The position numbers were made by a program, and so were the translations under genes. A stretch of DNA of 26,663 bases from a virus: positions 1 to 26,663 of the IMG/VR virus record IMGVR_UViG_3300037507_003913; one strand, written 5' to 3'. The notes below the pieces were generated by a model that ran no database searches, had not been told where the DNA came from, and saw nothing but the letters and a program-made list of their open reading frames with translations. Of this stretch, positions 3,001 to 26,663 are shown in pieces. Positions within the stretch are counted from its first letter, which is position 1, and every line of letters starts with the position of its first letter.

Positions 3001-5717
3001 CATCTTCGGATATTTGGGTTGACGAAAACCATCAGTCTGATGTTTTAGTAAATGTTGGCGGTGACAGAGATGCTTGGCAATTAATTACAGATAGACTTCC
3101 AGTAAATCTAGAATGGAATTCTTGGCAAACTATTTGGACAGGAACTAATACAACTGTTGGTGAGGGTTGGATTGGTAGAAGTTTGGTGGAAACCACAACC
3201 ACTACAACTACACAATCACAAACAAGAAGTGGCATAGTCTCAAGAGTTGTGCCTAATACAATAACACAGTCAATTGGTGATCGTGTTGTAGATGTTTCTA
3301 TTATTCCGTTTATGAGAAGCATCAATGTGTTGTTTGTTGGCACTGATTTCAAACCAAGCACCACTCTTTATCCATTCTTTGACGAAACTTCTGTAGAAAA
3401 TTATGTTGGTGATCGTGTTAACAAATATTATCTAACTTCAAACAACATTGGATTTAATGTAAACTACAGTAATCCAGAAGTCGTAAACATTAGAGACAAG
3501 AGTGTTGGCGTCAATGTGGCAAACGCTGTTGTTGTCCATACATCAAATAATATTGTGTATGTTACAAACATGGCAATTAACACTTCGTTTAATTTTGCCA
3601 CAGCAAATGCTGCTAATTTACAATTGGTCGGTGCTCAAACAGGACTAACATACAACGTAGCAACATACGAACACAATGGCGGTATTGTAAATACTGCTAC
3701 CTCTAGTTCTGTGACACTTCGTATTGATGCACAAAACGCAAGCAACCAAAATACAATTAATGGTTCAGTAATCTTTATCACACAAGGTAAAGGCGCTGGT
3801 CAAAGTGCAACAATTACTTCATATAATGTTTCTACAAGAGTAGCGAACATTTCTAGCACTTGGACAACAACCCCAGATACAACCTCACATTATGGCATCG
3901 GCAGATTGACAACGGATCCAGCTGGTTCAGTTGTTGGTATTTTCAGTATTCCTAGTGGCACTTTCCGAGTTGGTGAAAAACAATTTAGATTGACTGATAC
4001 TTCGACTGGCGACATTCCAAGTTCTTCTACTAATGGCGATGCTTCATTCTTCGCACAAGGTTTGTTGCAAACTAAAGAAGAAGTCATCATATCTACTGTA
4101 TCTCCGGTTGTTCAACGAACCGCTGTAACCGATAATCGTGTGGTTACAAGCCAATCTTCAGTTTCAAGAGTTTTACAGACTCTGCCGCCGATCAATTGGG
4201 CAGATCCATTAGCACAAACATTCTTGGTCAGTCCACAACAATATCCTCAAGGCATATTCTTGTCAAAGATTCGTTTGTGCTTCAAAACAAAAGACGATAC
4301 TGTACCAGTGACTTTACAACTTCGTCCAACAGTCAATGGATTCCCATCAAGTTCTGTTGTTTATCCGTTCTCAACTGTTTCTTTGACTCCAGATAAAGTT
4401 AAAGTATCTGCAAGTCCTAGCATGACAGATTCTAGTAAGTATACTGAATTTGTTTTTGATTCGCCAGTGTATTTACAACCTGGTGAACATTCGTTTGTTG
4501 TTCTTGCTAACTCTAACAAGTATGAAATTTATGTGGCTGAAATCGGTAAGTTAGACATTGTGAACGGCCGTCAAATATCTGAACAAGCTTATGGTGGATC
4601 ATTGTTCTTGTCGCAAAACGGATCAACATGGACTGCCGATCAAACTTCAGACATGATGTTCCAATTGTATCGTAGTAGTTTTAGTACAAGTTCCGCTACA
4701 GCTCAATTTCATGTTTCTACTCCAACAACTGTTGTTCCTTATGAAGTTGTGCATTTGATTACATCAGATATTGTTCTTGCAAATACATCATTAAGTTATC
4801 AATTTAATTCTGAGAAAGCCGACAGTTCTGGTTTTGCTGGGTTAACTTCAATCACACCTTTGAAGAATTTGGAAATTTACGATGGTGTTGGTAGAAAGTT
4901 AAGCAATACCGGTAACTCTACAACTGGAACAAGTAACACATTCACTCTTGTTGGCACAATGACTGCTCTAAGTAATGATGTTTCACCAGTAATCGATGTA
5001 TCTCGTATGGCTCTTTTAGCCATTGAAAATGAAATCAACAACCTTGGACTTTCAAACTCAGGTGTTGTCGTTTCTAACACTGGTTCTGGTTACGCAAACT
5101 CCGCAGACATTACAGTTACAATTTCAGGCGGCGGCGGTTCTGGTGCTACAGCTGTAGCAAACGTTGTGTCTAATACCGTTAATGCAGTATACATCACAAA
5201 CGCAGGTTCTGGTTACACAAGTTCACCAACAATTACACTAACACCAGGATCTGGCGGCGGTGCTAATGCTGTTGTAACATACATTGGTGAAACTGAGAAA
5301 TCTGGTGGTAACGCTACGGCACGATATATGACTCGCCGTGTAACTCTCGCTGATGGTTTTGATTCTGGTGACTTGCGTGTTTATGTAACTGCAAATAAAC
5401 CGGCGGGAACTAACATCTATGTTTATTACAAGATTCTTTCAGCATCTGATCCTGGAGTTTTTGATGATAAGAGTTATCAGTTGATGACAGAACTGGGCAA
5501 TGCAAACTTTGTATCATTAAATGAAAATGATGATCGTGAATTAACATTTGCACCAGGTGTAAATGGTATTGCAAACAACTCTGTATCTTACACTTCCGCA
5601 GGAACAGCATTTACAACATTTAGAACTTTTGCTATTAAGATTGTAATGTCTAGTTCTAATACTGGAATTGTTCCAAGAATTAAAGATATGAGAGCGATTG
5701 CTTTACCAGCGGGTTGA
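1..5717 (+). CDS. DUF4815-type giant virion (tail/baseplate-associated) protein, 5' end outside window
   Basis: This is the C-terminal ~1,904 residues of a very large structural protein. The frame is open from base 3, with no stop before the ATG at 33. The residues before that ATG ([10 protein letters not shown]) continue naturally into it, so the real start lies upstream and the ATG at 33 is internal. From memory of marine T4-like phages, blocks such as [20 protein letters not shown] and [20 protein letters not shown] are characteristic of the DUF4815 proteins encoded near baseplate and fibre genes. The chain is rich in Thr, Ser, Asn and Val, as expected of beta-rich fibrous proteins. It has a poly-Thr stretch (about 3195-3215) and two tandem GSGY-type repeats near the C-terminus (about 5062-5290). 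The next gene starts one base after the stop. Virion location is well supported by the family; the exact role (baseplate periphery or fibre attachment) is not established. Confidence 0.85.
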
Positions 5718-6900: not shown

Positions 6901-6908
6901 TATAAATA
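6901..6908 (+). promoter_or_regulatory. T4-type late promoter TATAAATA
   Basis: This is a perfect match to the T4 late promoter octamer in the 48-base gap before the fibre gene at 6937. Initiation would be expected about six bases past the octamer, near 6914. That gives a short leader with the AAGGAG ribosome-binding site at 6926-6931. Confidence 0.65.
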
Positions 6909-6936: not shown

Positions 6937-7491
6937 ATGGCAATCAAAGTAAACGGCACTACTGTTATCGATGACAGTAGAGTTTTCCAAAATTTAGGCG
7001 CTGCACTTACTGTAGGAAACGGTGGTACAGGCGCAACATCCCTAACAGCAAACAGTTTTTTGTACGGTGCCGGCACAAGTGCTATTACCGCAACAACCTT
7101 ATTAGCTAGAGCGCACGCTGTCTCAACAGGTGACTATGTGCGAGCCTTAGGTTTCGCTGACACAGTAACTGCGTTAGGCAATACTGGTACAGCTATTAAC
7201 ATTGATGTGACCGCCGGCGGCGTATTTACAGCAACATTAACTGGCAACTGCACATTTACCTTAAGATATCCAGTTGCTACTGGTGCATCGTCTTTCACAC
7301 TCATTTTAACAAATGATGGCTCAGCGGGTAGAACTGTTGCTTGGTCCGGCGGTTCATTTATTTGGCCAGGCGGTGCATCCAATCTTTCGAGAACGACAAC
7401 TGCAAATGCTATTGACGTTTGGGTATTTTTTACACCAAACGGCGGCACAACTTGGTATGGTAATATTGCAACAAAAGATATGAAGGCTTAA
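6937..7491 (+). CDS. Short tail-fibre-like structural protein
   Basis: A 184-residue protein. The N-terminus MAIKVNGTTVIDDSRVF and the following VGNGGTGATSLTANSFLYG are hallmark segments of phage tail fibre proteins; the Gly-Gly-Thr-Gly turn recurs in many fibre shafts. Residues ~85-184 are beta-rich and aromatic (TFTLRYPVATGASSFTLIL, WSGGSFIWPGG, TTWYGNI) and could form a C-terminal tip domain. It has no S74 domain, unlike its neighbour, so it must fold without that chaperone. The ATG follows AAGGAG at 6926-6931 and a perfect late octamer at 6901, so it probably heads a late transcript. Virion location is likely by family resemblance; receptor binding is inference. Confidence 0.75.
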   Translation: MAIKVNGTTVIDDSRVFQNLGAALTVGNGGTGATSLTANSFLYGAGTSAITATTLLARAHAVSTGDYVRALGFADTVTALGNTGTAINIDVTAGGVFTATLTGNCTFTLRYPVATGASSFTLILTNDGSAGRTVAWSGGSFIWPGGASNLSRTTTANAIDVWVFFTPNGGTTWYGNIATKDMKA

Positions 7492-7518
7492 TTTTTTAAT
7501 CACTAAAGGAGAATTTAA

Positions 7519-7734
7519 ATGCCATTAACAAACGAACAACTGGCGGATTTGGAATATCAAAGTCAAGTACAAAAACTTAATCATGCAGCAAGAGATAGAC
7601 TTGAATTGGTTAGACTAGCAAAAGAAACATTGTTGGAAAATGCTCGTAGTAAACCTGTAGAAACAAGAGAAGTTACCGCAGAAGATATTTTAACTTTTGC
7701 TAATAAACTTACAAATTTTGTACATCCAAACTAA
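7519..7734 (+). CDS. Small protein of unknown function
   Basis: A 71-residue protein beginning MPLTNEQLADLEYQSQVQKLN. It has a strong ribosome-binding site AAAGGAG at 7505-7511, seven bases before the ATG. It is predicted mostly helical and charged, with no Cys motif, signal peptide or membrane segment. It sits between a fibre gene and the first oxygenase gene. The good translation signal and coding-like composition support a real gene; I do not recognise the family. Confidence 0.65.
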   Translation: MPLTNEQLADLEYQSQVQKLNHAARDRLELVRLAKETLLENARSKPVETREVTAEDILTFANKLTNFVHPN

Positions 7735-7749
7735 TAAAAAGTTTTTGTT

Positions 7750-8319
7750 ATGAATTTTTTTGCTTATTTTCCTTCAATCATTTGTCGAGATGAACAACCA
7801 AATTTTGTTGAAACTCTCTTAAATAATTGTATAAAAATTAAAGAAGAAAAAAAAACTGAAGGCGAAACATTTTTTCAATCGAATGATTTAAAGGATGAAT
7901 ATTTCATTGAAGAGTTTAAAAAACATGTTTTATCTTCTGCTGTAAATTTATTGAGTGTACAAGGTTATTCTGTAGAAAAATACAATTTTTTTGTTTCTTC
8001 ATTGTGGTTTCAAGAATTGGGTAAAGGTGCGGCCACAAATGCACATTTCCACAAAAATAGTCAAATATGTGGATGGTTTTTTTTGGAAGCACCAGAAAAG
8101 GGATCATATCCAGTTTATTATGATACTCGCATTAACAAAAATATGATTGAATTGGATTTTGTACAAACAGAAGAAATAACTAATGCCACAAATGTTATAC
8201 ACTTTAATAATGTTCAAAACGGCACCGTTATTTTTGCTCCATCTTGGATACAACATCAATTGACAGTAAATCGTTCAGAAATGCCAACTCGTTGTATCCA
8301 TTTTATTATTTCTAATTAA
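7750..8319 (+). CDS. 2OG-Fe(II) oxygenase (2OG-FeII_Oxy_5-like)
   Basis: A 189-residue putative 2-oxoglutarate/Fe(II)-dependent dioxygenase. The C-terminal half fits the double-stranded beta-helix of this family. NAHFHKNS supplies the iron ligands His99 and His101, as in families where HxH replaces HxD. APSWIQHQL supplies the distal His169, and Arg181 in TRCIHFII can bind 2-oxoglutarate. The order N-H-x-H, then the 'FAPSW..H' strand, then Arg resembles PF13759, which is common in T4-like marine phages. Such enzymes hydroxylate proteins, nucleotides or small molecules; the substrate is unknown. It is the first of four oxygenase genes in a row. There is no strong Shine-Dalgarno before its ATG (the gap is AAAAAGTTTTTGTT), so it may be weakly translated. 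Confidence 0.8.
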   Translation: MNFFAYFPSIICRDEQPNFVETLLNNCIKIKEEKKTEGETFFQSNDLKDEYFIEEFKKHVLSSAVNLLSVQGYSVEKYNFFVSSLWFQELGKGAATNAHFHKNSQICGWFFLEAPEKGSYPVYYDTRINKNMIELDFVQTEEITNATNVIHFNNVQNGTVIFAPSWIQHQLTVNRSEMPTRCIHFIISN

Positions 8320-8332
8320 GGATAAATTTATT

Positions 8333-8935
8333 ATGACACAAATCCAACACACAATTACGCCGTATTCTCAAGGTGTTGAACCTTTTGTTTGGTGGGAGAA
8401 TGTTTTTACTGAAGATGAATTGAATTGGTTACAAAAAAAAGCAAAAATGTCTGAAATACCAGCTCAAATTGGCGGCGCCGGTACTTTTGCAAAAGGTTCA
8501 GTCGATACATCATATAGACGATCAAATATTTCTTGGTTGTCAAAAGATAACCAAACTGCTTGGCTTTTTGAAAAATTGAGTCATGTGGTTTCTTCTATAA
8601 ATTGTAATTTTTATCGATTTGATTTAACTGGTTTTGGAGAAAATATACAACTTACAAACTATGATGAAACAGACAATGGAATGTATAATTGGCATGTTGA
8701 TTATGGTTCTAAAAATGGTCCAAGCCGTAAACTAAGTATCGTGTTACAATTAACTGATCCATCTGAATATGAAGGTGGTAACTTACAAGTTTGTGATGGA
8801 ACAATTCACAATGTTAGAAAACAACGAGGTTTGGTCGCTGCTTTTCCTTCTTATACTTTACATCAAGTTACTCCAGTTACAAAAGGAAGCCGGCAATCTC
8901 TTGTTGCTTGGATTACAGGACCAAGTTTTAGATAA
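8333..8935 (+). CDS. 2OG-Fe(II) oxygenase, prolyl-4-hydroxylase-like
   Basis: A 200-residue dioxygenase of the P4Hc type. NWHVDYG gives iron ligands His121 and Asp123; SYTLHQVTPVTKGSRQSL gives the distal His177 and, ten residues on, Arg187 to bind the 2-oxoglutarate carboxylate. EYEGGNLQV is the usual strand between them. All active-site residues of an active enzyme are present. It most resembles PKHD-type hydroxylases such as PiuC-like proteins; whether it acts on prolyl residues is unknown. An AAGGA ribosome-binding site sits just after the preceding stop, 13 bases separate the genes, and the next oxygenase follows within 11 bases. Confidence 0.88.
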   Translation: MTQIQHTITPYSQGVEPFVWWENVFTEDELNWLQKKAKMSEIPAQIGGAGTFAKGSVDTSYRRSNISWLSKDNQTAWLFEKLSHVVSSINCNFYRFDLTGFGENIQLTNYDETDNGMYNWHVDYGSKNGPSRKLSIVLQLTDPSEYEGGNLQVCDGTIHNVRKQRGLVAAFPSYTLHQVTPVTKGSRQSLVAWITGPSFR

Positions 8936-8946
8936 ATGGAGAAATA

Positions 8947-9555
8947 ATGAATTCTAGTTATAAAAATTTTATAGGCACTTATGAAAATGTTTATCAAGAA
9001 GGTTATTGTGAACATGTAATTTCTGAATTTGAAAATCTGTTGGAACATGGAGCGGGAAGAACAAGATTACAATCAGAAAATTCAAAACCACACACCAAAA
9101 ATGATTACTCAATTATATTCAATTCACATTATCTGAACAGTTTTACTGTTGAAGATCGTAAGTTTGATGTGAGAGATGTTTTTTTTGAGGGCTTACAAAA
9201 GTGTTATGATGAATATGTTTCTAAATACTCTGTTTTACAAGAGTGTAAAATATACGGCAATATAATGAAAGTTCAAAAAACGATGCCTGGTGGTGGTTAT
9301 CACATTTGGCATCAAGAAAAAGGCAATAGAGAATTTACAAGAAGAACAATAGTCTTTATGCTTTATTTGAATACATTGGAACCAGAAGAAGGTGGCGAAA
9401 CTGAATTTTTATATTTAAAACAAAGAGAGCGGCCAGTTAAAAATACTATGTTACTTTGGCCAGCAGATTATACACACGCACATCGTGGAAATGTGGTTCT
9501 TGGTGAAAAGAGTAAATATATTGTTACAGGATGGTTTTTATATGACGATAACTAA
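8947..9555 (+). CDS. 2OG-Fe(II) oxygenase with HxE-type facial triad
   Basis: A 202-residue dioxygenase diverged from its neighbours. YHIWHQEKG supplies His122 and Glu124, a Glu in place of the more usual Asp. PADYTHAHRGN supplies the distal His179, and Lys190 in KYIVTGWF is the probable 2-oxoglutarate-binding residue. PEEGGETEFLYL is the typical strand between the halves of the site. It is therefore probably active. GGAG precedes the ATG. The last 14 bases overlap the next oxygenase gene, which suggests coupled translation. The substrate is unknown. Confidence 0.83.
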   Translation: MNSSYKNFIGTYENVYQEGYCEHVISEFENLLEHGAGRTRLQSENSKPHTKNDYSIIFNSHYLNSFTVEDRKFDVRDVFFEGLQKCYDEYVSKYSVLQECKIYGNIMKVQKTMPGGGYHIWHQEKGNREFTRRTIVFMLYLNTLEPEEGGETEFLYLKQRERPVKNTMLLWPADYTHAHRGNVVLGEKSKYIVTGWFLYDDN

Positions 9556-10141
9556 TTTTGATAAATTTGGTTGTGTTTTTGTGAAAAATTTTATAGAATC
9601 ACAAACAATTACACTTGTTTCTAATTATTTAGAAAATAAAATAAAAAGAGGAGAGTGGGTTGAAAATCGTTCTGGAACTTCATCTTCAAATAAAGATAAT
9701 ACAACACAATATGCATATTACGCAGATCCATTAATTGAAGAACTTTTGAAAGCTGCTAAAGAAAAAGTTGAAGAAGTTTCTGAAAAAGAATTATTACCTA
9801 CATACTCTTATGCCAGAATTTACCAAAGTGGTGAACAATTAAAACCACATGTAGATAGGCCTGCATGTGAAGTGAGTGTCACAGTTAATGTTGCTACAAA
9901 AGGTGAATTTTCTCCAATCTATATACAATACGGAAACAACGAGGTATGTAAATTTGTATTAGAACCTGGCGATGCTGTTGTTTATAAAGGATGTGAAGCT
10001 GTTCACTGGAGAAAACCTTTAGTTGAAGATCAATTAAATGTGCAATTTATGTTACATTATGTCGATAAAAATGGGCCTTATGCTGAACATGTTAAAGATA
10101 AAAGACCGTCATACGGAATGAGCGAATTTACAAGGAGATAA
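9542..10141 (+). CDS. 2OG-Fe(II) oxygenase
   Basis: A 199-residue dioxygenase. I chose the ATG at 9542 (MTITNFDKFGCVFVKNF), which overlaps the previous gene by 14 bases. A longer reading from 9485 would only add residues encoded by an out-of-frame part of the upstream gene. KPHVDRPACE gives iron ligands His103 and Asp105; GCEAVHWRKPL gives distal His155. The usual Arg/Lys about ten residues after the distal His is not obvious, since the stretch is VEDQLNVQFMLHYV, so 2-oxoglutarate may be bound by another residue such as Arg157. The C-terminal block FMLHYVDKNGPY looks family-specific. It is the last of four oxygenases and carries the next gene's AAGGAG at 10133-10138. Confidence 0.82.
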   Translation: MTITNFDKFGCVFVKNFIESQTITLVSNYLENKIKRGEWVENRSGTSSSNKDNTTQYAYYADPLIEELLKAAKEKVEEVSEKELLPTYSYARIYQSGEQLKPHVDRPACEVSVTVNVATKGEFSPIYIQYGNNEVCKFVLEPGDAVVYKGCEAVHWRKPLVEDQLNVQFMLHYVDKNGPYAEHVKDKRPSYGMSEFTRR

Positions 10142-10142
10142 A

Positions 10143-11132
10143 ATGCCAGCTGGAACACCTAAAGTTACATTATTTGGGGGAGTGTCATTAGTGCCTGGCG
10201 GCACTCAAACATTTAATGCTCCAGGAACATTTACTGTTCCAGTTGGAGTTAAAACGGTTTCTGTAACGGGCCGAGGAGGCACAGGCAATGCTGGAAATGC
10301 TGGAAATGCTGGACCGCCTTTAGGAATTAATATTGCTGCTAGCGGCGGTGGTGGCGGCGGCGGAAACGCTTCGATTATTAATCCGGATTTTAACGATCAA
10401 GGCTGTAATACTGGAGGTCCAGGCGGCATCGGTGCAACTGGATGGCCTCAGTGCGAGTATAGTAAAGGCGGCAACGGCGGTACACCAGGCACAAATGGAA
10501 TAACTGGTTCAGCGGGAAATTCAGGTAATCCCGGCAATACGGGAACAGCTTCAACAGCTTTATCACAAACTTTTCCTGGTGGCGCTGGAGGCAATGGCGG
10601 CACCGCAGGTAATACAGCACGTGGCGGAAATGGCGGTAATGCCGGCGGCAAAGCTTTTTTCTATTGGGCTTACAGCCAGGCCTTCAATGGAAGTGGCGGC
10701 GGCGGCGGTTTTCAAGGCGGCGGTAACGGCCAAACCGGCGGCTACGGCGGCGGCGGTGCCGGCAAAGGGCCAGGCGAAAATGATGGACTTCCGGGATGTT
10801 GCTTCGGCACCGGCGGCACTGCTACAGTTAATCCAGCAATACGAAGTTCTGGTCCAGGCGGCAACGGCGGTGGACCAGGCACTTGGGCCGGAAGTCCTGG
10901 CCAGGGCGGCGGTGGCGGCGGCGTGGGGGCTCGAGGACAACAAGGTCAATTTGGTGGTGGTGGTGGCGGTGGTGGTCGCTCAACTCCAGGAAACTCTGCT
11001 AATCCTGGTAATCCGGGTAGCACTGCATCTACAACAACCGTTAACGCTGTGCCAGTAACACCAGGTTCTCCATATCCAATTTCTGTTGGAACACCAGGTG
11101 GAACAATTGTTATAAGTTGGAATCCGCAATAA
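10143..11132 (+). CDS. Glycine-rich tail-fibre-tip or adhesin-like protein
   Basis: A 329-residue protein in three parts. Residues ~20-45 form a short beta segment, TFNAPGTFTVPVGVKTVSV. Residues ~45-305 are extremely Gly-rich, with runs such as GGGGGGGN, GGNGGTAGN and GGGGGGGGR separated by Asn, Ala, Thr and aromatic residues. The C-terminal part is PVTPGSPYPISVGTPGGTIV. Phage adhesins such as T-even gp38 use stacked polyglycine II helices with variable loops for receptor binding, and this architecture is compatible. The 'TFTVPxGV..V.V' plus Gly-rich pattern is common at phage fibre tips. The DNA is locally GC-rich (GGC-GGT runs), unlike its neighbours. Translation starts from AAGGAG, four bases before the ATG. 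A virion role is likely; receptor binding is inference. Confidence 0.72.
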   Translation: MPAGTPKVTLFGGVSLVPGGTQTFNAPGTFTVPVGVKTVSVTGRGGTGNAGNAGNAGPPLGINIAASGGGGGGGNASIINPDFNDQGCNTGGPGGIGATGWPQCEYSKGGNGGTPGTNGITGSAGNSGNPGNTGTASTALSQTFPGGAGGNGGTAGNTARGGNGGNAGGKAFFYWAYSQAFNGSGGGGGFQGGGNGQTGGYGGGGAGKGPGENDGLPGCCFGTGGTATVNPAIRSSGPGGNGGGPGTWAGSPGQGGGGGGVGARGQQGQFGGGGGGGGRSTPGNSANPGNPGSTASTTTVNAVPVTPGSPYPISVGTPGGTIVISWNPQ

Positions 11133-11162
11133 TTTTTTAAAGGGTAATTAGGAAATATAATA

Positions 11163-11729
11163 ATGGTTACAAGAAAAAAAACTAATTGGCAGAAAAAAAT
11201 AAAAGAAGAATGGGGAAATTTTGATGCCCAAATGTCATACATGTCTAGAAGTGGAGATTTAAATCGAGCTAGATCGGTAACCGTAGGAACAGCATTTGGT
11301 GGCTCTATTGAGTTATCAATGCGTAGACATGACGGAAAAACCACTTGGGCTGTTTTACAACCTGTTGAGGTGATTGAACTAATTCATCAACTTTCCGCAC
11401 AAGTTGGATGCCATTTAAATTTAAAACCCAGAAATGATTTTGGTAGTTGGAGAAATTGGCGTGTTTCGGATGAAGAGAGATTGCATTTGCAGGGTCATCC
11501 ACCATTCTCTAATGACTTGGCTCCACACATGCAAATTGGTGCAAATATGCCGGCGCCGGAAGAACAACCTGGCTTAAAATCTAACTTATTGACTTCAAAT
11601 TCTTTGGAACAACAACTACAACAGTTAATAAAGGACACAAAAAATGAACAATCCGCAGACAAAGAACCTGTGGCAACTAAAGAAACTGTCAGACGGAAGC
11701 GCACTAAGCGATCCACAAATTCTTCCTGA
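11163..11729 (+). CDS. Protein of unknown function between adhesin-like and tail chaperone genes
   Basis: A 188-residue protein beginning MVTRKKTNWQKKIKEEWGN. The N-terminal ~110 residues look folded (mixed charge, several Trp, a beta segment near FGGSIELSMRRHDGKTTWAVL). The C-terminal ~70 residues are low-complexity and Gln/Glu/Lys-rich, ending in a basic tail (VRRKRTKRSTNSS), so probably disordered. The last 86 bases overlap the next gene in another frame. I recognise no motif. Its place next to a fibre adhesin and an assembly chaperone suggests a virion or assembly role, without direct evidence. Confidence 0.65.
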   Translation: MVTRKKTNWQKKIKEEWGNFDAQMSYMSRSGDLNRARSVTVGTAFGGSIELSMRRHDGKTTWAVLQPVEVIELIHQLSAQVGCHLNLKPRNDFGSWRNWRVSDEERLHLQGHPPFSNDLAPHMQIGANMPAPEEQPGLKSNLLTSNSLEQQLQQLIKDTKNEQSADKEPVATKETVRRKRTKRSTNSS

Positions 11730-12048
11730 AAATTGGGGACCAATTTTTGGTCTACACGGTTTTATTGATCAACTTAATGATTTAAGTTGGCTTGGTGATG
11801 ATTATAAAGATATGGGTTGGTTTAAATTAGATCAAACAGTTGCTATACCTACAGAGTCTACTAAAGCTGAATTGGTTTGGGAAGAGGCTAAAAAGAGATT
11901 AAAAGAATCCGATTGGTCTGTCCTTTCTGATGTGCCAATGACCTCTGGAAAAAAAGCCGAATGGATTGAGTATCGCAGAGCTCTTCGTGAAATAAAATTA
12001 CAGACAGGTTTTCCTAATGAGGTAAGATGGCCTGACATTCCCACGTGA
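11644..12048 (+). CDS. Tail fibre/tail assembly chaperone-like protein
   Basis: A 134-residue protein. Residues ~75-130 (ending WEEAKKRLKESDWSVL...DVP and WIEYRRALREI...FPNEVRWPDIP) strongly resemble the phage tail assembly chaperone family (Phage_tail_APC type). In that family an 'R..LL..SDW..L.D.P' block is followed by 'W..YRQALRDI' and a C-terminal 'WP..P'. Such proteins help fibres fold or attach. The N-terminal half (ILPENWGPIFGLHGF, DDYKDMGWF) is a separate region. The ATG follows AAAGGA at about 11631-11636, inside the preceding gene, giving an 86-base overlap. The stop overlaps the next GTG start by four bases (GTGA), so coupled translation is expected. Confidence 0.72.
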   Translation: MNNPQTKNLWQLKKLSDGSALSDPQILPENWGPIFGLHGFIDQLNDLSWLGDDYKDMGWFKLDQTVAIPTESTKAELVWEEAKKRLKESDWSVLSDVPMTSGKKAEWIEYRRALREIKLQTGFPNEVRWPDIPT

Positions 12049-12275
12049 ATAAGTATTCAATAAGATTTAATAAGTTTAGAGGACAAGAAGGCCGAGGTTC
12101 GTACTTACATGTTTGGCGTGTTTTTGAAAATGGCCGTGAAATCTTAGCTAAATATGTAAAAATAAATGTAAAATCTTGGACCGAACTTGATGAAAACGGC
12201 CAAGATTATAACATTGCATGTTATGGCAGAATGACTTTTTTTGATGATACTGAAACGGTGGTAATTAATGAATAG
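12045..12275 (+). CDS. Small protein of unknown function
   Basis: A 76-residue protein (MNKYSIRFNKFRGQEGRGSY) starting at a GTG that shares the bases GTGA with the upstream stop. Alternating hydrophobic and charged residues (YLHVWRVFENGREILAKYV, DYNIACYGRMTFF) suggest a small beta-rich fold. It has no known motif, signal peptide or membrane segment. It overlaps the start of the next gene by eight bases, so three consecutive genes here appear translationally coupled. Function unknown. Confidence 0.68.
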   Translation: MNKYSIRFNKFRGQEGRGSYLHVWRVFENGREILAKYVKINVKSWTELDENGQDYNIACYGRMTFFDDTETVVINE

Positions 12276-12678
12276 AACTTGTGATGGATGCGCTGAATGT
12301 TGTAAAGGTTGGCTAAGTGGTATTGCTTTAGGACACGATTTTTATCCCGGTAAAAAATGTTTTTATCTCCAAAAAACTTGCTCAATTTATGAAAATCGGC
12401 CAATTAACCCTTGTCAAACATATAAATGTCATTGGTTAGCTTCTGACGATTTTCCTATGTGGATGCGGCCCGATTTATCTAATGCTATTGTGACACAAAG
12501 AAGGACTCAAAGTGGTATTCCATATTTCGAAATATTAGAGTGTGACAAAAAAATGGACTCTGAAGTTTTGTCATGGTTTATCGTTTGGGCTCTGAACAAT
12601 AACAAAAATCTTTATTATCAAATCAATAGAGGCTATAATAAAATAGGCTCAAAAGATTTTTTAGAATCTAATTTATAA
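12268..12678 (+). CDS. CxxCxxCC (YkgJ-like) metal-binding protein
   Basis: A 136-residue protein with an N-terminal cysteine cluster Cys5-xx-Cys8-xx-Cys11-Cys12 (CDGCAECC). Cys31 follows, then Cys38 in CSIYENRPINPCQTYKC, with Cys49 and Cys54. This matches the CxxCxxCC (UPF0153/YkgJ) family, thought to bind zinc or an iron-sulfur cluster, in which 'C.iY..RP..C..f.C' is the second signature. Biochemical roles in the family are poorly known; in phages a protein-modification or redox role is only a guess. The C-terminal half (EVLSWFIVWALNNNKNLYYQ) is helical. The ATG lies eight bases inside the upstream gene. A regulatory hairpin follows within 12 bases of its stop. Confidence 0.78.
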   Translation: MNRTCDGCAECCKGWLSGIALGHDFYPGKKCFYLQKTCSIYENRPINPCQTYKCHWLASDDFPMWMRPDLSNAIVTQRRTQSGIPYFEILECDKKMDSEVLSWFIVWALNNNKNLYYQINRGYNKIGSKDFLESNL

Positions 12679-12689
12679 GGCAATTTGAA

Positions 12690-12723
12690 CTCCTCTTTTG
12701 ACTAAATACCGTCTAAAGAGGAG
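12690..12723 (+). promoter_or_regulatory. Hairpin pairing the ribosome-binding site, with late-promoter octamer inside
   Basis: The left arm CTCCTCTTT (12690-12698) is exactly complementary to the right arm AAAGAGGAG (12715-12723). After a T-T mismatch, GAC (12700-12702) pairs with GTC (12711-12713), leaving an 8-base loop TAAATACC. The right arm contains the Shine-Dalgarno AGAGGAG of the gene that starts with TTG at 12732. No U-run follows, so it does not look like a terminator. Read-through transcripts would hide this ribosome-binding site. A transcript starting at the internal octamer would lack the left arm. Confidence 0.7.
12701..12708 (+). promoter_or_regulatory. Late-promoter-like octamer ACTAAATA
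   Basis: ACTAAATA differs from TATAAATA at two bases, and the identical octamer occurs upstream of the sheath gene at 26179. With T4 spacing, transcription would begin near 12714, exactly at the start of the right hairpin arm. The gap between two gene groups is where a promoter is expected. Confidence 0.5.
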
Positions 12724-12731
12724 ACTGTATT

Positions 12732-13067
12732 TTGGCAGACTTTATAGAATTAGATATAGAGGCCGGTGCTACTTTTGCCACCCAAATTATTATTGAAAAC
12801 GATGATGGTACGCCTCGTAATTTAACGAATCACACAATCACTTCTCAACTTAGAAAATCTTACTATTCAACAACGGCTACTGATTTTGTAATATCAATAA
12901 CCGATTCTGCAAATGGTAATGTTTCTATGACTCTCACTGCTGCCACCACTGCTAACCTTCGTGCCGGTCGTTATGTTTTTGATGTTGAAATGAATGATGT
13001 AGCCAATAATAACATTCAAAGAATGTTTGAAGGTATTGCAACAGTCTTGCCAAACGTAACAAGATAA
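12732..13067 (+). CDS. Small beta-rich virion-like protein preceding the collagen-like fibres
   Basis: A 111-residue protein, MADFIELDIEAGATF, starting at TTG. That start has an AGAGGAG site eight bases upstream and no nearby ATG, so the rare start codon is well supported. The layout 'D.E.GATF...I.....DGTPRNLTN....SQLRKS', then 'G.VSMTLTAATTANLRAGRYVFDVEM' and 'EGIATVLPNVTR' is a recurring small phage protein, probably an Ig-like beta sandwich comparable to BppU-type N-terminal domains that attach receptor-binding proteins. In marine phages such genes often precede collagen-like fibre genes, as here. Its ribosome-binding site is sequestered in the hairpin at 12690-12723, suggesting expression only from the late promoter inside it. 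The structural role is inference. Confidence 0.75.
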   Translation: MADFIELDIEAGATFATQIIIENDDGTPRNLTNHTITSQLRKSYYSTTATDFVISITDSANGNVSMTLTAATTANLRAGRYVFDVEMNDVANNNIQRMFEGIATVLPNVTR

Positions 13068-13083
13068 AAAAAAAGGTTAAAAA

Positions 13084-16000
13084 ATGAGAGTACAAGTAAG
13101 GGCAGGCGTTCAAGGTGTATCCGGTTTCTCAGGTTATAGTGGTTCAGCCGGCGGTATAGGTTCTTCGGGTTCTTCGGGTTATTCTGGTTATAGTGGAACC
13201 GGTCCATCAGGTTATTCTGGTTTCTCTGGATTTTCTGGTTATTCTGGTTTAGATGGCGCTGCTGCCTTTAGTGGACATTCCGGTTATTCTGGTCAATCTG
13301 GTATTTCGGGTTATTCGGGACTTTCCGGCTTTAGTGGTTTTTCCGGACAATCTGGCATTTCAGGTTATTCGGGCACTGGTCTTTCTGGTTTTTCTGGTTT
13401 TTCAGGACAAAATGGTATTATCGGTGGTGATGGTGTTTCCGGTTACTCAGGTTATTCTGGTACATCAGGTTTTTCTGGAGCAGCTTTTGTAGGCTCTTCA
13501 GGTTTTTCTGGATTCTCAGGATATTCTGGCAATAGCACTTCCGGTTTCAGCGGTTTCTCTGGCATATCCGGTTTCAGCGGTTTCTCAGGCATCTCCGGTT
13601 TCTCCGGTATTTCAGGATTCTCTGGCATCTCCGGTTTTTCCGGCATCTCAGGATATTCTGGTAATAGCACTTCAGGTTTTTCAGGATATTCTGGCAATAG
13701 CACTTCAGGTTTCTCTGGATACTCAGGCATATCCGGTTTTTCTGGAGCAGCCTTCGTAGGTTCATCCGGATTTTCTGGATTCTCAGGCGAGTCGGGTTAT
13801 TCTGGACAATCTGGTGTTTCGGGTTATTCTGGATTCTCTGGTATTTCTGGTTATTCTGGAGTCTCTGGTTTTAGTGGGTCTATAGGTGAATCTGGTTTTT
13901 CCGGTTATTCTGGCCAATCTGGTTTTAGTGGATTTATTGGCGATTCTGGTTACTCTGGCGCTTCTGGTTTTAGCGGCTTTGTTGGTCTTTCCGGTTATTC
14001 GGGATATTCCGGTCAATCCGGTTTCTCTGGAGAATCCGGTTATTCCGGTTATTCTGGTCAATCTGGTGTTTCGGGTTATTCGGGAATTTCTGGTTACTCT
14101 GGTGATAGTACATCGGGTTATTCGGGATATTCCGGCACCAGTGGTTTCTCCGGTTATTCTGGCATATCGGGATTCAGCGGTTTCTCCGGTATATCCGGTT
14201 TCTCTGGTGAGTCTGGTTATTCTGGTATAAGTGGATACTCTGGCGAGTCGGGTTACTCTGGTATCTCCGGTTACTCTGGTGACAGTACATCTGGTTATTC
14301 CGGTTTCTCAGGCATCTCCGGTTTCTCCGGCATTTCTGGTTACTCAGGTTACTCTGGTATATCCGGTTACTCTGGTGATTCAGGCATATCAGGATACTCA
14401 GGTTACTCAGGTTATTCTGGTATATCCGGTTTCTCTGGTGAGTCTGGTTATTCTGGTATTTCCGGTTTTAGCGGTTTCTCCGGCATTTCTGGTTACTCAG
14501 GTTATTCTGGTATATCCGGTTTCTCTGGTGAATCTGGTTACTCTGGCATTTCAGGTTTTTCGGGATTCTCCGGTTTCTCTGGAGAATCCGGTTTCTCAGG
14601 TTTCTCAGGCATTTCCGGATTTTCTGGTTTCTCTGGTTACTCCGGCCAATCTGGTTTCTCAGGCACTTCAGGCATCTCAGGTTATTCTGGCCGTGATGGT
14701 CAGTTCGGCGGTGCATCATTCTATTATCAATTCGACACCAAGACAGACACATTAGATCCTGGCCCAGGCCGTTTGAATGTTAATAATGCTTCGTTGTCAG
14801 CTGCGACTGTACTCGTAATTGATGAACAAGATAAATTCCTGACTAATGTTCATACATTCTTACAAACAATTGATGATTCTTCAAGTTCAATCAAAGGTTA
14901 CGCTAAGATTACTGAAGAAGCGAATACTCTCAATTTCGTCATCTATGCTATTACAGGTCTTCACCTAGATTCATCACAACATTTTGATGTGCCTGTATCA
15001 TATGTTTCAGGTGTAGACACGCCATTCACAAACAACACAAATGTTATCATTACATTTGCTGTAACAGGTGATAAGGGTGACCAGGGTATATCTGGATTCT
15101 CAGGTATATCCGGATTTTCCGGTTTCTCCGGCATCTCAGGATTCTCTGGTGAATCAGGTTATTCTGGTATTTCCGGTTACTCCGGTTTCTCAGGTATCTC
15201 CGGTTATTCCGGTTTCTCTGGTGAATCAGGTTATTCTGGTATAAGTGGATACTCTGGTTTCTCCGGCATCTCAGGATTCTCTGGTGAATCAGGTTATTCT
15301 GGCATCTCCGGTTTCTCTGGATTCTCAGGTATCTCCGGTTATTCCGGTTTCTCTGGTGAATCAGGTTACTCGGGTATATCTGGTTATTCTGGTTTCTCCG
15401 GCATTTCTGGTTACTCCGGTTACTCTGGTATCTCCGGTTACTCTGGTGACAGTACATCTGGTTATTCCGGTTTCTCAGGCATCTCCGGTTTCTCCGGCAT
15501 TTCGGGTTACTCCGGCATTTCCGGTTTCTCAGGGTTTTCTGGTATCTCAGGATTTAGCGGTTTCTCTGGCATATCTGGTTATTCTGGTTACTCCGGTTTT
15601 TCTGGTATAAGTGGTTATTCCGGGTTCTCTGGCATATCCGGTTTCTCCGGTTTCTCCGGTTATTCTGGCATATCTGGTTACTCAGGATTTTCCGGTAGAT
15701 CCGGTTTTTCTGGCATATCTGGTTTTAGTGGATACTCAGGCATATCTGGTTTTAGTGGTTTCTCAGGCATCTCTGGTTTCTCTGGATTCTCAGGTCAATC
15801 TGGATTCTCAGGATTCTCAGGCATCTCTGGTTTCTCAGGCATCTCTGGTTTCTCAGGCATTTCGGGTTACTCTGGTCGCTCAGGTTTCTCAGGTACAAAC
15901 GGTACAAACGGTGCAACAGGTGCTTCTGGTTTCTCTGGTTATTCCGGCGCTTCAGGACCTTCAACGACAATCAATGCAACAGATGACACAACAACGGCCG

Positions 16001-16401
16001 CAGATCATTATCCAGTATTTGTTGCAGCTGTTGGTTCAAACCAAACAGCTGAAACATCGTCCTCTAAACTTTATTTTAGACCATCTACTGGTCAATTGAG
16101 TGCTACTGATTTCAACACACTTTCTGATATCGCATACAAAGAAAATGTAGAACCAATTAGCAATGCGCTAAATAAGATATTAGAGTTGCGTGGTGTTTCG
16201 TATCAAATGAAAGATTCGAAGAAACATTCTTTAGGCGTGATTGCTCAAGAAATACAAAATATATTGCCCGAAACTGTTTCTGAAAATTCAAATGGTTCTA
16301 AGACAGTTTCGTATAATCATATCATTGCTGTGTTGATTGAAGCTATCAAAGAGCAACAAAAGATAATTGATAAGATCAACCAAAAGATAAGCAAACTATA
16401 A
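13084..16401 (+). CDS. Long Gly-X-Ser repeat (collagen-like) fibre with S74 chaperone domain
   Basis: A 1,105-residue fibre. Residues ~8-539 and ~662-957 are Gly-X-Ser triplets in which X is mainly Phe, Tyr or Ile, also Gln, Glu, Val. They are broken at intervals by GNSTS/GDSTS and by SGAAFVGSSGFSG (twice). Between the two shafts, residues ~540-661 form a non-repetitive domain (FYYQFDTKTDTLDPGPG through VIITFAVTGDKGDQG). Residues ~958-1105 contain an S74 auto-processing chaperone: SDIAYKENV gives Ser1014 and Lys1019, followed by LGVIAQEIQNILPETV and a leucine/isoleucine-rich helix. Self-cleavage before Ser1014 would release ~92 residues. The triplets have almost no proline, unusual for a collagen triple helix. 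The next gene, a shorter paralogue, begins directly after its stop. Virion fibre role is strongly inferred. Confidence 0.88.
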   Translation: MRVQVRAGVQGVSGFSGYSGSAGGIGSSGSSGYSGYSGTGPSGYSGFSGFSGYSGLDGAAAFSGHSGYSGQSGISGYSGLSGFSGFSGQSGISGYSGTGLSGFSGFSGQNGIIGGDGVSGYSGYSGTSGFSGAAFVGSSGFSGFSGYSGNSTSGFSGFSGISGFSGFSGISGFSGISGFSGISGFSGISGYSGNSTSGFSGYSGNSTSGFSGYSGISGFSGAAFVGSSGFSGFSGESGYSGQSGVSGYSGFSGISGYSGVSGFSGSIGESGFSGYSGQSGFSGFIGDSGYSGASGFSGFVGLSGYSGYSGQSGFSGESGYSGYSGQSGVSGYSGISGYSGDSTSGYSGYSGTSGFSGYSGISGFSGFSGISGFSGESGYSGISGYSGESGYSGISGYSGDSTSGYSGFSGISGFSGISGYSGYSGISGYSGDSGISGYSGYSGYSGISGFSGESGYSGISGFSGFSGISGYSGYSGISGFSGESGYSGISGFSGFSGFSGESGFSGFSGISGFSGFSGYSGQSGFSGTSGISGYSGRDGQFGGASFYYQFDTKTDTLDPGPGRLNVNNASLSAATVLVIDEQDKFLTNVHTFLQTIDDSSSSIKGYAKITEEANTLNFVIYAITGLHLDSSQHFDVPVSYVSGVDTPFTNNTNVIITFAVTGDKGDQGISGFSGISGFSGFSGISGFSGESGYSGISGYSGFSGISGYSGFSGESGYSGISGYSGFSGISGFSGESGYSGISGFSGFSGISGYSGFSGESGYSGISGYSGFSGISGYSGYSGISGYSGDSTSGYSGFSGISGFSGISGYSGISGFSGFSGISGFSGFSGISGYSGYSGFSGISGYSGFSGISGFSGFSGYSGISGYSGFSGRSGFSGISGFSGYSGISGFSGFSGISGFSGFSGQSGFSGFSGISGFSGISGFSGISGYSGRSGFSGTNGTNGATGASGFSGYSGASGPSTTINATDDTTTAADHYPVFVAAVGSNQTAETSSSKLYFRPSTGQLSATDFNTLSDIAYKENVEPISNALNKILELRGVSYQMKDSKKHSLGVIAQEIQNILPETVSENSNGSKTVSYNHIIAVLIEAIKEQQKIIDKINQKISKL
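13105..14688 (+). repeat. Gly-X-Ser coding repeat, shaft 1
   Basis: About 530 codons of nine-base units encoding Gly-X-Ser, with wobble variation (GGT/GGC/GGA; TCT/TCC/TCA/AGT) and larger duplicated blocks. The variation shows long-standing amino-acid selection plus more recent block duplication. Confidence 0.9.
14251..14336 (+). repeat. 86-base perfect direct repeat, copy 1
   Basis: This block, encoding Gly-Tyr-Ser-type triplets and one GDSTS interruption, is identical base for base to 15418-15503. The synonymous codons match too, so it is a recent copy and not mere amino-acid conservation. The two copies lie on opposite sides of the folded domain between the shafts. Confidence 0.85.
15067..15954 (+). 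repeat. Gly-X-Ser coding repeat, shaft 2
   Basis: About 296 codons of Gly-X-Ser triplets between the inner domain and the S74 region. It starts with GDKGDQG, which is closer to ordinary collagen-like phage sequence, then continues with the aromatic GFS/GYS/GIS pattern. Confidence 0.9.
15418..15503 (+). repeat. 86-base perfect direct repeat, copy 2
   Basis: Second copy of 14251-14336, in the same reading frame 1,167 bases downstream. Recombination between the two would delete or duplicate the inner domain while keeping the frame, because 1,167 is divisible by three. Confidence 0.85.
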
Positions 16402-17442
16402 ATGGCAATATCACTAAGAACACTACTAGGCGCTGGAGTATCGGGATATTCTGGCCGTTCAGGTTATTCTGGCTACTCCGGCATAAGTGGTTTCTCAGGT
16501 TTTTCTGGCATAAGTGGTTATTCTGGTAGATCCGGTTTCTCCGGCTTCTCAGGTATTTCTGGATTTTCAGGATTCTCAGGTATATCTGGTTATTCTGGTT
16601 TTTCTGGAATATCTGGCTTCTCAGGTATTTCTGGATTTTCAGGATTCTCAGGCATATCTGGTTTTTCTGGATTCTCTGGTATATCGGGATTCTCAGGATT
16701 TTCCGGTATTTCAGGATTCTCTGGCATCTCCGGTTTTTCTGGTATATCTGGTTTCTCAGGCAACTCCGGTTTTAGTGGTTTTTCTGGCGTATCTGGCTTT
16801 TCTGGTTTGAATGGTGAAGCAGCCTCAAGTGGTTTCTCTGGTATCTCCGGTTTCTCGGGTACAAACGGTACTAATGGATCATCTGGTTTCTCAGGATATT
16901 CTGGCATCTCCGGTTTCTCAGGATATTCTGGTATATCCGGTTTCTCAGGATATTCTGGTATATCCGGTTATTCTGGATTTTCTGGCATCTCCGGTTTCTC
17001 TGGTGCTGCTGGTCCATCTACTACGATTAATGCAACTGACGATACTTCAACAGCATCAGATTTTTACCCAGTAATCGTAGCGGCTGCTGGCACAAACCAA
17101 ACAGCTAAAGTTACTACAACAAAACTTTATTTTAGGCCATCAACGGGTGAACTAAGTGCGACAGATTACAATACATTATCCGATTTGGCGTATAAAGAAA
17201 ATATTGAGCCAATTAGTAATGCGCTAAATAAGATATTAGATATTCGAGGTGTTTCCTATAACCTAAAAGATTCGAAGAAACAATCTCTTGGTGTTATTGC
17301 TCAAGAAGTTGAGAGGGTTTTACCTCAAACAGTAACATCAAATTCTAATGGAACAAAAACGGTTTCTTATAATCATATTATTGCTGTGTTGGTTGAAGCT
17401 GTTAAAGAGTTAAAAGAGGAAGTCGATAGACTGAAAAAATAA
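16402..17442 (+). CDS. Short Gly-X-Ser repeat fibre with S74 chaperone domain
   Basis: A 346-residue paralogue of the preceding fibre. Residues ~13-203 are Gly-[Phe/Tyr/Ile]-Ser triplets, with a GLNGEAASSG interruption and a GTNGTNGSSG segment. The C-terminal region matches the neighbour almost position by position (KLYFRPSTGELSATDYN, then ISNALNKIL). The S74 dyad is Ser260/Lys265 in SDLAYKENI, followed by LGVIAQEVERVLPQTV and a helical C-terminus; cleavage would release ~87 residues. It starts with no gap after the longer fibre, with no clear Shine-Dalgarno, so translation is probably coupled. Because it lacks the inner folded domain, it may be a simpler alternative fibre or a second segment. 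Virion role is inferred. Confidence 0.88.
   Translation: MAISLRTLLGAGVSGYSGRSGYSGYSGISGFSGFSGISGYSGRSGFSGFSGISGFSGFSGISGYSGFSGISGFSGISGFSGFSGISGFSGFSGISGFSGFSGISGFSGISGFSGISGFSGNSGFSGFSGVSGFSGLNGEAASSGFSGISGFSGTNGTNGSSGFSGYSGISGFSGYSGISGFSGYSGISGYSGFSGISGFSGAAGPSTTINATDDTSTASDFYPVIVAAAGTNQTAKVTTTKLYFRPSTGELSATDYNTLSDLAYKENIEPISNALNKILDIRGVSYNLKDSKKQSLGVIAQEVERVLPQTVTSNSNGTKTVSYNHIIAVLVEAVKELKEEVDRLKK
16438..17010 (+). repeat. Gly-X-Ser coding repeat in the short fibre
   Basis: About 190 codons of the same aromatic Gly-X-Ser triplets as the longer fibre. The two genes share short identical DNA stretches here and in their S74 regions, so homologous exchange between them is plausible. Confidence 0.88.
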
Positions 17443-20773: not shown

Positions 20774-20781
20774 GATAAATA
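20774..20781 (+). promoter_or_regulatory. Late-promoter-like octamer GATAAATA
   Basis: GATAAATA differs from the T4 late octamer at one base. It lies directly after the stop of the last glycosyltransferase gene and 22 bases before gene 13, so it would give a short leader containing the AAGGA site near 20791. It marks the switch from the variable module to the conserved structural operon. Confidence 0.5.
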
Positions 20782-20802
20782 GGTAATAAACAAGGATTTC
20801 TT

Positions 20803-21756
20803 ATGGCATCTCCAAAAACAAGAACACAATTCAAAGATTACTGCCTTAGAAAATTAGGTTGGCCTGTCATCGACATTAACGTTGATGACGATCAAGTTGA
20901 AGACCGAATTGATGATGCTTTAGCGTTTTTCTACGACTATCATTATGATGGTACAGAAAAACTTTTTATGAAACACCAAATCACCCAAGCGGACATTGAC
21001 CGCCGTTGGATTTATTGTCCTGATGCCGTACTTTTCGTGACTGGTATTTTAAGATTTGATGATTCAAATTCTTCTATAAACATGTTTGACCTCAGATATC
21101 AATTGAGATTACATGATCTTTACGACTTTACTTCAGTATCTTATGTGTCGTATGAAATTACGATGCAACATATTCAAACACTCAATCTTTTATTTTCTGG
21201 AACACCACAATTCAGATTTAATCGTGTTCAAAATAAAGTATTTTTAGATATTGATTGGACAAGAGATTTAGAAGTTGGTGATTATGTTATTGTGGAATGT
21301 TATCGCCGAATGGCACCAGAAACTGTTGATTTGACTGGCACAGCTTCACTAGTTGCGGGAAATACAACTGTGATTGGAACCAACACAATTTTTGACCAAG
21401 AAATTGTTGAAAATGACTTTGTTACTTTTGGCAATGAATCATTGCAAGTTAGAAAAATTAATTCGCCAACAAATATTACATTAACAAGTGCGCCGGCGGC
21501 CACAAATGCTGCAGCAACAATGTCTGTTGCTGGTTTGACAGATGTTTGGGATAATCGATTTCTTAAGGCCTATGCTACTGCCAAGATCAAAATGCAATGG
21601 GGTTCCAATCTTAAAAAGTTTTCAGGCATACAAATGCCTGGTGGTGTAACATTCAATGGCCAACAAATATATGATGAAGCTGTAGAAGAATTGAAGAGTA
21701 TGGAAGAACAGATGTATAATGCTACAAGTATGCCTAGCGAAATCTTTATAGGATAA
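20803..21756 (+). CDS. 13: Neck protein, T4 gp13-like
   Basis: A 317-residue homologue of T4 gp13 (309 residues), which with gp14 forms the neck that closes the DNA-filled head and receives the tail. The N-terminus (RTQFKDYCLRKLGWPVIDIN, then VEDRIDDALAFFYDYHYDG) and C-terminus (WDNRFLKAYATAKIKMQWG, FNGQQIYDEAVEEL) are typical for T4-like phages. Residues ~173-245 (TGTASLVAGNTTVIGTNTIF, NITLTSAPAA) look like a small inserted beta domain also seen in other phage proteins. Gene 14 follows after five bases. The family assignment rests on sequence pattern plus the 13-14-15-16-17-18 order. Confidence 0.9.
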   Translation: MASPKTRTQFKDYCLRKLGWPVIDINVDDDQVEDRIDDALAFFYDYHYDGTEKLFMKHQITQADIDRRWIYCPDAVLFVTGILRFDDSNSSINMFDLRYQLRLHDLYDFTSVSYVSYEITMQHIQTLNLLFSGTPQFRFNRVQNKVFLDIDWTRDLEVGDYVIVECYRRMAPETVDLTGTASLVAGNTTVIGTNTIFDQEIVENDFVTFGNESLQVRKINSPTNITLTSAPAATNAAATMSVAGLTDVWDNRFLKAYATAKIKMQWGSNLKKFSGIQMPGGVTFNGQQIYDEAVEELKSMEEQMYNATSMPSEIFIG

Positions 21757-26176: not shown

Positions 26177-26192
26177 ATACTAAATAGAGTAT
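26177..26192 (+). promoter_or_regulatory. Late-promoter-like octamer in a small hairpin before the sheath gene
   Basis: ACTAAATA (26179-26186) is the same octamer found at 12701. It is framed by the inverted repeat ATACT (26177-26181) and AGTAT (26188-26192). It starts just after the gene 17 stop and about 45 bases before the gene 18 ATG. Transcription would be expected near 26192. Unlike the hairpin at 12690, this one does not cover the ribosome-binding site. Confidence 0.5.
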
Positions 26193-26231: not shown

Positions 26232-26663
26232 ATGGCGTTTCAGCTTTCACCTGGCGTAAATGTATCAGAAGTTGATCTGACTACAGTTGTGCCTTCAGTC
26301 GCCACATCTATTGGCGCATTTGCCGGAATTTTTGCCTGGGGTCCAGTAAATGAAGTCGTTACAATTTCTGATGAGGTTCGTTTAGCGGACACATTCGGAA
26401 AACCAGACGATAATAACTATGAACATTGGTTCTCAGCTGCAAACTTTTTAGCGTATTCAAATAATCTCAGAGTTGTTCGTGCAGCCAACTCAACCTCCAC
26501 ACTAAATGCCACTTCTGCTGGCGCTGGTGTTTTAATCGAAAATGAAGGTGATTATCTAGACAATCATACATCTGGCGCAAACACTTATGGTCGTTTTGCC
26601 GCCAAATGGCCTGGCGATTTAGGCAATTCCATTCGTGTTGAAGTCGCCGATGCTAACACATAT
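26232..26663 (+). CDS. 18: Contractile tail sheath protein, T4 gp18-like (5' part)
   Basis: The first 144 codons of the tail sheath gene, running off the right edge. MAFQLSPGVNVSEVDLTTVV, then SIGAFAGIFAWGPVNEVVTI and a later 'FL.Y.NNLRVVRA' block, is the standard N-terminus of T4-like sheath subunits, which polymerise around the tail tube and contract on infection. Start at ATG 26232 is supported by the AAAGGAG site. It follows gene 17 directly, as in T4, with its own late-promoter-like octamer. Confidence 0.93.
   Translation, partial: MAFQLSPGVNVSEVDLTTVVPSVATSIGAFAGIFAWGPVNEVVTISDEVRLADTFGKPDDNNYEHWFSAANFLAYSNNLRVVRAANSTSTLNATSAGAGVLIENEGDYLDNHTSGANTYGRFAAKWPGDLGNSIRVEVADANTY

Follow-up and report, generated by a model that had tools for sequence, protein, structure and literature searches.

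The analysed stretch of DNA, called the window here, is a viral fragment of 26,663 bases with a T4-like late gene order. Oxygenase-like and glycosyltransferase-like genes lie amid its fibre block, and the hairpin described below sits mid-way in the host-recognition block. In pelagimyophages and cyanomyophages, a large variable host recognition cluster extends from VrlC to gp14 and the neck genes (PMC7029224). The window resembles this cluster in having a giant gene at the VrlC position, fibres, glycosyltransferase-like genes and then neck genes; an RNA gate was not found described for the cluster in the literature searched. Both fibre proteins contain collagen-like repeats (GXSGYSG/GFSG) and have closely similar C-terminal ends. 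Judged from these sequences, they are likely duplicated tails.

The gene behind the hairpin starts with TTG, in agreement with its homologs, which have the same first residue and mostly ATG at this position. PHROG matches of its 111-aa product were families of unknown function and the 'L-shaped tail fiber protein assembly' family. The predicted structure (pLDDT 93) matches tail-tip proteins of T5/DT57C (TM about 0.72-0.78) and baseplate chains of phage 80alpha, and the model suggests that the product is likely a small baseplate or collar subunit which helps to attach fibres. It may correspond to the T5 collar protein p132. A DNA similarity search with positions 12200-13100 against named phages gave no match, and the search of the genome collection gave no encoded relative.

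Table 1. Features of the window around the hairpin and left-arm versions in close relatives (SD, Shine-Dalgarno sequence)
Feature	Position	Strand	Remarks
Giant gene, VrlC position	33-5717		best PHROG phrog_358
Upstream octamer TATAAATA	6901-6908	+	late-promoter-like; plausible source of read-through RNA
Tail/host-recognition genes upstream of hairpin	6937-12678		behind octamer at 6901
Immediate upstream gene	12268-12678	+	phrog_9155; stop codon ends 11 nt before left arm
Left (anti-SD) arm CTCCTCTTT	12690-12698	+	sequence and fold; varies in relatives, pairing kept
Inner stem, left, GAC	12700-12702	+	3 bp with GTC; AAC/GTT in L024 and L117
Late-promoter-like octamer ACTAAATA	12701-12708	+	same octamer in L001-L005, L024, L117, L046/L149-L154
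Hairpin loop TAAATACC	12703-12710	+	RNA fold
Inner stem, right, GTC	12711-12713	+	pairs with GAC 12700-12702
Predicted transcription start	12714 (12713-12715)	+	inferred from T4 late-promoter geometry
Right arm AAAGAGGAG	12715-12723	+	holds SD; identical in window, L001-L005, L024, L117
SD GAGGAG	12718-12723	+	inside right arm; 8 nt spacing to TTG 12732
Gated gene, TTG start, 111 aa	12732-13067	+	beta-sandwich of baseplate/collar type; assigned in PHROG to 'L-shaped tail fiber protein assembly'
Collagen-like fibre gene	13084-16401	+	16 nt downstream of gated gene; no octamer of its own just upstream
Shorter fibre paralogue	16402-17442		Collagen and Peptidase_S74 matches, tested on this protein
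Neck genes	20803 and 21762		
Large terminase	24522
Left arm, window			CTCCTCTTTT
Left arm, L002-L005			CTTCTCTTTT
Left arm, L001			TTCCCTTTTT
Left arm, L024			CTCTTCTTTT
Left arm, L117			TTTCCTTTTT
Left arm, L046 group			CTCCTGGTTT

The hairpin comprises 34 nt. Its two arms form 9 bp, followed by a single mismatch (T12699 x T12714) and the 3 bp of the inner stem, which is the structure over the SD of the TTG gene reported in a preliminary description of this sequence. The octamer had been placed there in the loop region; this applies to six of its bases, and the first two belong to the stem. In T4 late promoters the octamer ends at about -6 relative to the transcription start. The position of the octamer places the predicted start past the left arm, so the earlier statement that a start near 12714 removes this arm holds. 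Compared with the T4 octamer TATAAATA, ACTAAATA differs at the first two bases. Its count in the window is not above chance (2 found, 1.5 expected), and the pattern GACTAAATACCGTC is present in the window record at the hairpin site only. Inverted repeats of similar length occur elsewhere in the region (the hairpin is I5 of 17 listed). Since neither the length of the repeat nor the octamer word is unusual, the case rests on the coincidence of the inverted repeat with SD and promoter and on its conservation, which are above chance. The second copy of ACTAAATA (26177-26192), ahead of a gene starting near 26233, shows a short dyad (ATACT-AAATAG-AGTAT) with the SD not paired. Short dyad flanks (GAC/GTC, GACT/AGTC, AACT/GGTT) are a tendency of the ACTAAATA octamers encountered.

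Folding of the 101 bases from 12660 to 12760, the check proposed in the preliminary description, recovered the hairpin with -28.9 kcal/mol and z = -4.7 (0 of 200 shuffles as good). The computed cost of opening the region from the SD to the start (12718-12734) was 18.2 kcal/mol in long read-through RNA and 3.2 kcal/mol in RNA from 12714 on, which agrees, as a prediction, with the proposed sequestration of the SD in RNA from upstream. As a null for the opening cost, the 50 bases upstream were dinucleotide-shuffled 4000 times, with octamer and leader held fixed; none of the shuffles reached 18.2 kcal/mol, and their mean was 8.4. None of 5000 shuffles of the left arm of the window folded as well as the real arm. 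Real and shuffled upstream sequences of the window were not separated by a probability-of-pairing test (p=0.15), because pyrimidine-rich shuffles also pair with the SD and the measure saturates; owing to this saturation the statistic was dropped. Tests of the whole ribosome-binding site (RBS) were weak for L024 alone (p 0.10-0.25).

For control, T4 genes, the window gene and other octamer-preceded genes were run through a single script under identical settings. T4 gene e was located through its lysozyme protein sequence, with a 100% match to GenBank T4 records. Under these common settings the opening cost was 15.2-15.5 kcal/mol for T4 gene e, 13.1 for I-TevII and 14.4 for the window gene. Two further octamer-preceded genes of the window gave 7.0 and 2.6 kcal/mol. 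The octamer-preceded genes of the relative G001 (145.6 kb) gave 1.5-11.5 kcal/mol, with the top values of 11.5 and 9.3 not significant in the shuffle null (11.5 against its own null). T4 soc was positive only with the octamer nearest to the start. In T4 gene 49 the octamer is part of the left arm and is kept by the null, hence this control is uninformative.

In T4, long transcripts bury the SD, and late transcripts start within the hairpin and leave it free (PMC3014915, PMC2988022). In gene e, two late promoters lie between left arm and SD, and soc and gene 49 are named as genes with an inhibitory RNA structure over the RBS (PMC3014915). The mechanism is already established for e, soc, 49 and I-TevI, as the preliminary description had argued for gene e and others (PMC3014915, PMC2988022); the gene gated here is new. 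The window shares with gene e a long RNA which sequesters the RBS, a late RNA without the left arm and the same calculated signature, but gene and sequence are others. The long RNAs of T4 are early and a silencing of about 100-fold was measured, whereas here it is predicted. I-TevI, I-TevII, I-TevIII and segB of T4 and mobE of Aeh1 likewise carry a late (or middle) promoter within the stem that sequesters the RBS (PMC2988022), and in I-TevII the octamer is located in the hairpin loop as in the window. In these cases the controlled genes encode homing endonucleases and lie within early or middle transcripts, whereas the hairpin of the window precedes a structural gene that belongs to a tail/host-recognition block. 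T4 soc is also a structural protein gene with an RNA structure covering the RBS, of different sequence. T4 gene 49, again with different sequences, has the octamer itself within the left arm.

Close relatives of the gene share the octamer ACTAAATA. Their proteins are 82-84% (five contigs, L001-L005), 64-65% (G001/L024) and 46% (group of L046 and L149-L154) identical to the window product; a further relative is L117 (partial). Fold comparison revealed that all six distinct versions of the site pair back onto their own SD. The L002 version is a G-U pairing variant, and L001 pairs in a shifted register with a longer stem reaching over the start codon. In L024 and L117, GAC/GTC is changed to AAC/GTT, and the stem of L117 has at least 12 contiguous bp. 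The L046 group pairs CTCCTG with CAGGAG, with a C-G to G-C swap on both sides. Combined with left arms from other versions, the right sides of L117 and L046 mostly fold less well than with their own. Across an alignment of the six rows, 90.3% of the cells pair, compared to 44-72% in slid controls, and two pairs are changed on both sides. The covariation score is modest, with six rows only, and was reached by 20 of 500 shuffles. Covariation of both arms, a check proposed in the preliminary description, is seen in the kept pairing and the two double-sided pairs, with the modest score just given. Loss of pairing without compensation, named there as a refuting observation, was not found among the six close versions, which keep pairing partly by compensatory or register-shifted changes. 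Conservation does not extend beyond the left arm, with only 10-22 of the next 50 bases alike. Matches to ACTAAATA-AAAGAGGAGA outside the gene family mostly come without a left arm, and those to TTGACTAAATANCGTC (L101-L112), which look like chance matches, form no hairpin with the SD.

The hairpin, the difference in SD opening cost and the pairing conserved over divergent left arms are computed from the sequences. We consider it probable, at about 75%, that the 34-nt element gates translation by promoter of origin, in the manner of T4 gene e and I-TevI. RNA entering from upstream genes would carry both arms, and the left arm would pair with the SD and block initiation at TTG 12732. Transcripts begun at the embedded late promoter (about 12714) would lack the left arm, have their 5' end almost at the SD and be translated. 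Most likely, read-through RNA is untranslated at 12732 and RNA from the embedded promoter is translated; we infer this switching, as well as promoter activity and start site, read-through repression and a biological benefit. Features expected of a T4-type hairpin are found here: an SD and/or start codon predicted to be paired in upstream-derived RNA, a putative late promoter whose position would leave the left arm out of its RNA, and pairing conserved in relatives (six versions; patchy in distant homologs). Set in a frequently rearranged host-recognition cassette, the gate would make the 111-aa protein depend on its own late promoter irrespective of what is found upstream; the fibre genes that follow might be tied to this promoter as well.

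The preliminary description had proposed a gate between early and late transcripts. This timing is not supported by the upstream genes (6937-12678), which look late. Read-through RNA is probably also late, because these genes sit behind the late-type octamer at 6901, the nearest octamer before an upstream gene; sigma-70-like sites are not above chance. It is more likely that the gate sorts transcripts by promoter of origin rather than by time. In this way the range of the classic T4 translation switch would come to include a gene of fibre-attachment type and T4-like phages that are uncultured and do not belong to the T-even group.

Translational coupling, in which ribosomes finishing the upstream gene would cover the left arm and open the SD, so that read-through RNA is translated in step, is an improbable alternative. 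In L024 and L117, 5-6 nt separate the upstream stop codon from the left arm, and in the window the two are also close (11 nt). Coupling is weakened because this distance is variable, from 5 to more than 100 nt: it is about 30 nt in L001, and in L002, which also has other upstream genes, it exceeds 100 nt. Given the footprint of a ribosome, one terminating in the window would end about at the edge of the arm, and the embedded promoter would be superfluous.

Slightly less probable still, the pyrimidine-rich left arm might be kept for promoter strength (as an upstream element) or by recent common descent, with SD pairing as a by-product. Most arm versions are indeed pure pyrimidine tracts, and pyrimidine-rich shuffles pair fairly well with the SD, too. 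However, the L046 arm contains two G, one of them paired with a matching C opposite, register-shifted versions retain near-perfect pairing, the GAC/GTC top covaries with AAC/GTT, and the 5000 shuffles of the window arm all fell short of the real one.

We regard it as very unlikely that the inverted repeat is an operator in the DNA, bound by a protein which regulates the late promoter, with incidental RNA pairing. The repeat is centred on the promoter, and overlapping control of this kind has a precedent in I-TevI, which represses its own late promoter (PMC2988022). A protein site would conserve sequence and not complementarity, but the arm sequences differ among the relatives with complementarity to the SD kept, and many of the differences are C to T replacements confined to the left arm, where they still permit G-U pairing.

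In the wider family, 52 of 63 distinct upstream regions of homologs have a NNTAAATA octamer at most 60 nt from the start, and most other homologs have TATAAATA or AATAAATA at the equivalent place. Strong sequestration is patchy, with p<=0.05 at 8 of 50 testable sites (2.5 expected). Among them is the distant homolog L056, which has the same architecture in unrelated sequence (GTCTCCAG/CTGGAGAC). For Melnitz-1 (L013) the predicted stem covers SD and start and has TATAAATA in its loop, but it is not significant in the shuffle test (p=0.21), and HTVC008M has the TATAAATA octamer and no gate in fold and shuffle tests.

A convincing intrinsic terminator lies within about 35 nt upstream of the octamer in 9 of 56 distinct homologs, so the earlier view that the hairpin replaces the usual terminator fits only a minority. 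The hairpin itself can hardly serve the upstream transcript as an intrinsic terminator or for mRNA processing, despite its location between genes and the true terminators just upstream of the same promoter in some homologs. No U-tract directly follows the stem (12723) and the site is absent from the terminator scan, so this reading was rejected. A riboswitch or other Rfam family was rejected as well, the covariance-model search having given one chance-level match far below the gathering score. The terminators directly upstream of the late promoter were seen in L049, L059, L062, L065, L067, L068, L071, L090 and L099. L068 and L090 combine the terminator with CTCCAG/CTGGAG pairing over the SD, i.e., two insulating devices at one site.

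The regions beside the hairpin are rearranged among the relatives. L117 and G001 do not differ in the 37 nt that lead up to the start codon or in the gene's first 77 bases, and their upstream glycosyltransferase-like genes are 92% alike. Between this gene and the hairpin, L117 carries a 216-aa oxygenase-like ORF (reverse strand 4743-5393), unlike G001 (L173 6419-7174). The outer left arm is changed together with the inserted ORF and pairing is still present. The window and L001 have an upstream gene in common and different arm types, and L002 has upstream genes unrelated to those of the window and the same arm type. One arm type (CTCYTCTTTT-like) occurs in the window, L002 and L024, the other (TTYCCTTTTT) in L001 and L117; with the two leader types (CCGTCT, TGGGTT) all four combinations occur, each of them pairing. 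By sequence comparison, the divergent arms with kept pairing would be best explained by selection on pairing or by exchange among gate-carrying phages. A left arm that is replaced along with the upstream cassette and still pairs is a natural experiment on insulation from read-through. Taken together, these points allow a tentative and rather doubtful proposal: the hairpin might insulate the edge of a swapped host-recognition cassette, the collar-type gene would be translatable only from its own late promoter whatever recombines upstream, and crossovers would preferentially hit the left arm or its immediate outer flank. This opens the question of hairpins that insulate structural genes, rather than only timing lysis or endonuclease expression.

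Two minor observations concern other sites. A similar leader (ACAAGGATTTCTTATGGC) accompanies GATAAATA before the gp13-like neck gene in the window (20774-20803) and in L173 (14388-14417), without a hairpin; from its sequence, GATAAATA is a candidate late promoter. In L046 (966-968), L149 and L150-L154, ATC stands at the start position where all others have ATG or TTG. It has normal SD spacing, and in L046 the stretch from it back to the preceding in-frame stop offers no ATG, GTG or TTG in frame. Judged by these sequences, a conserved AUC start codon is possible in this group.
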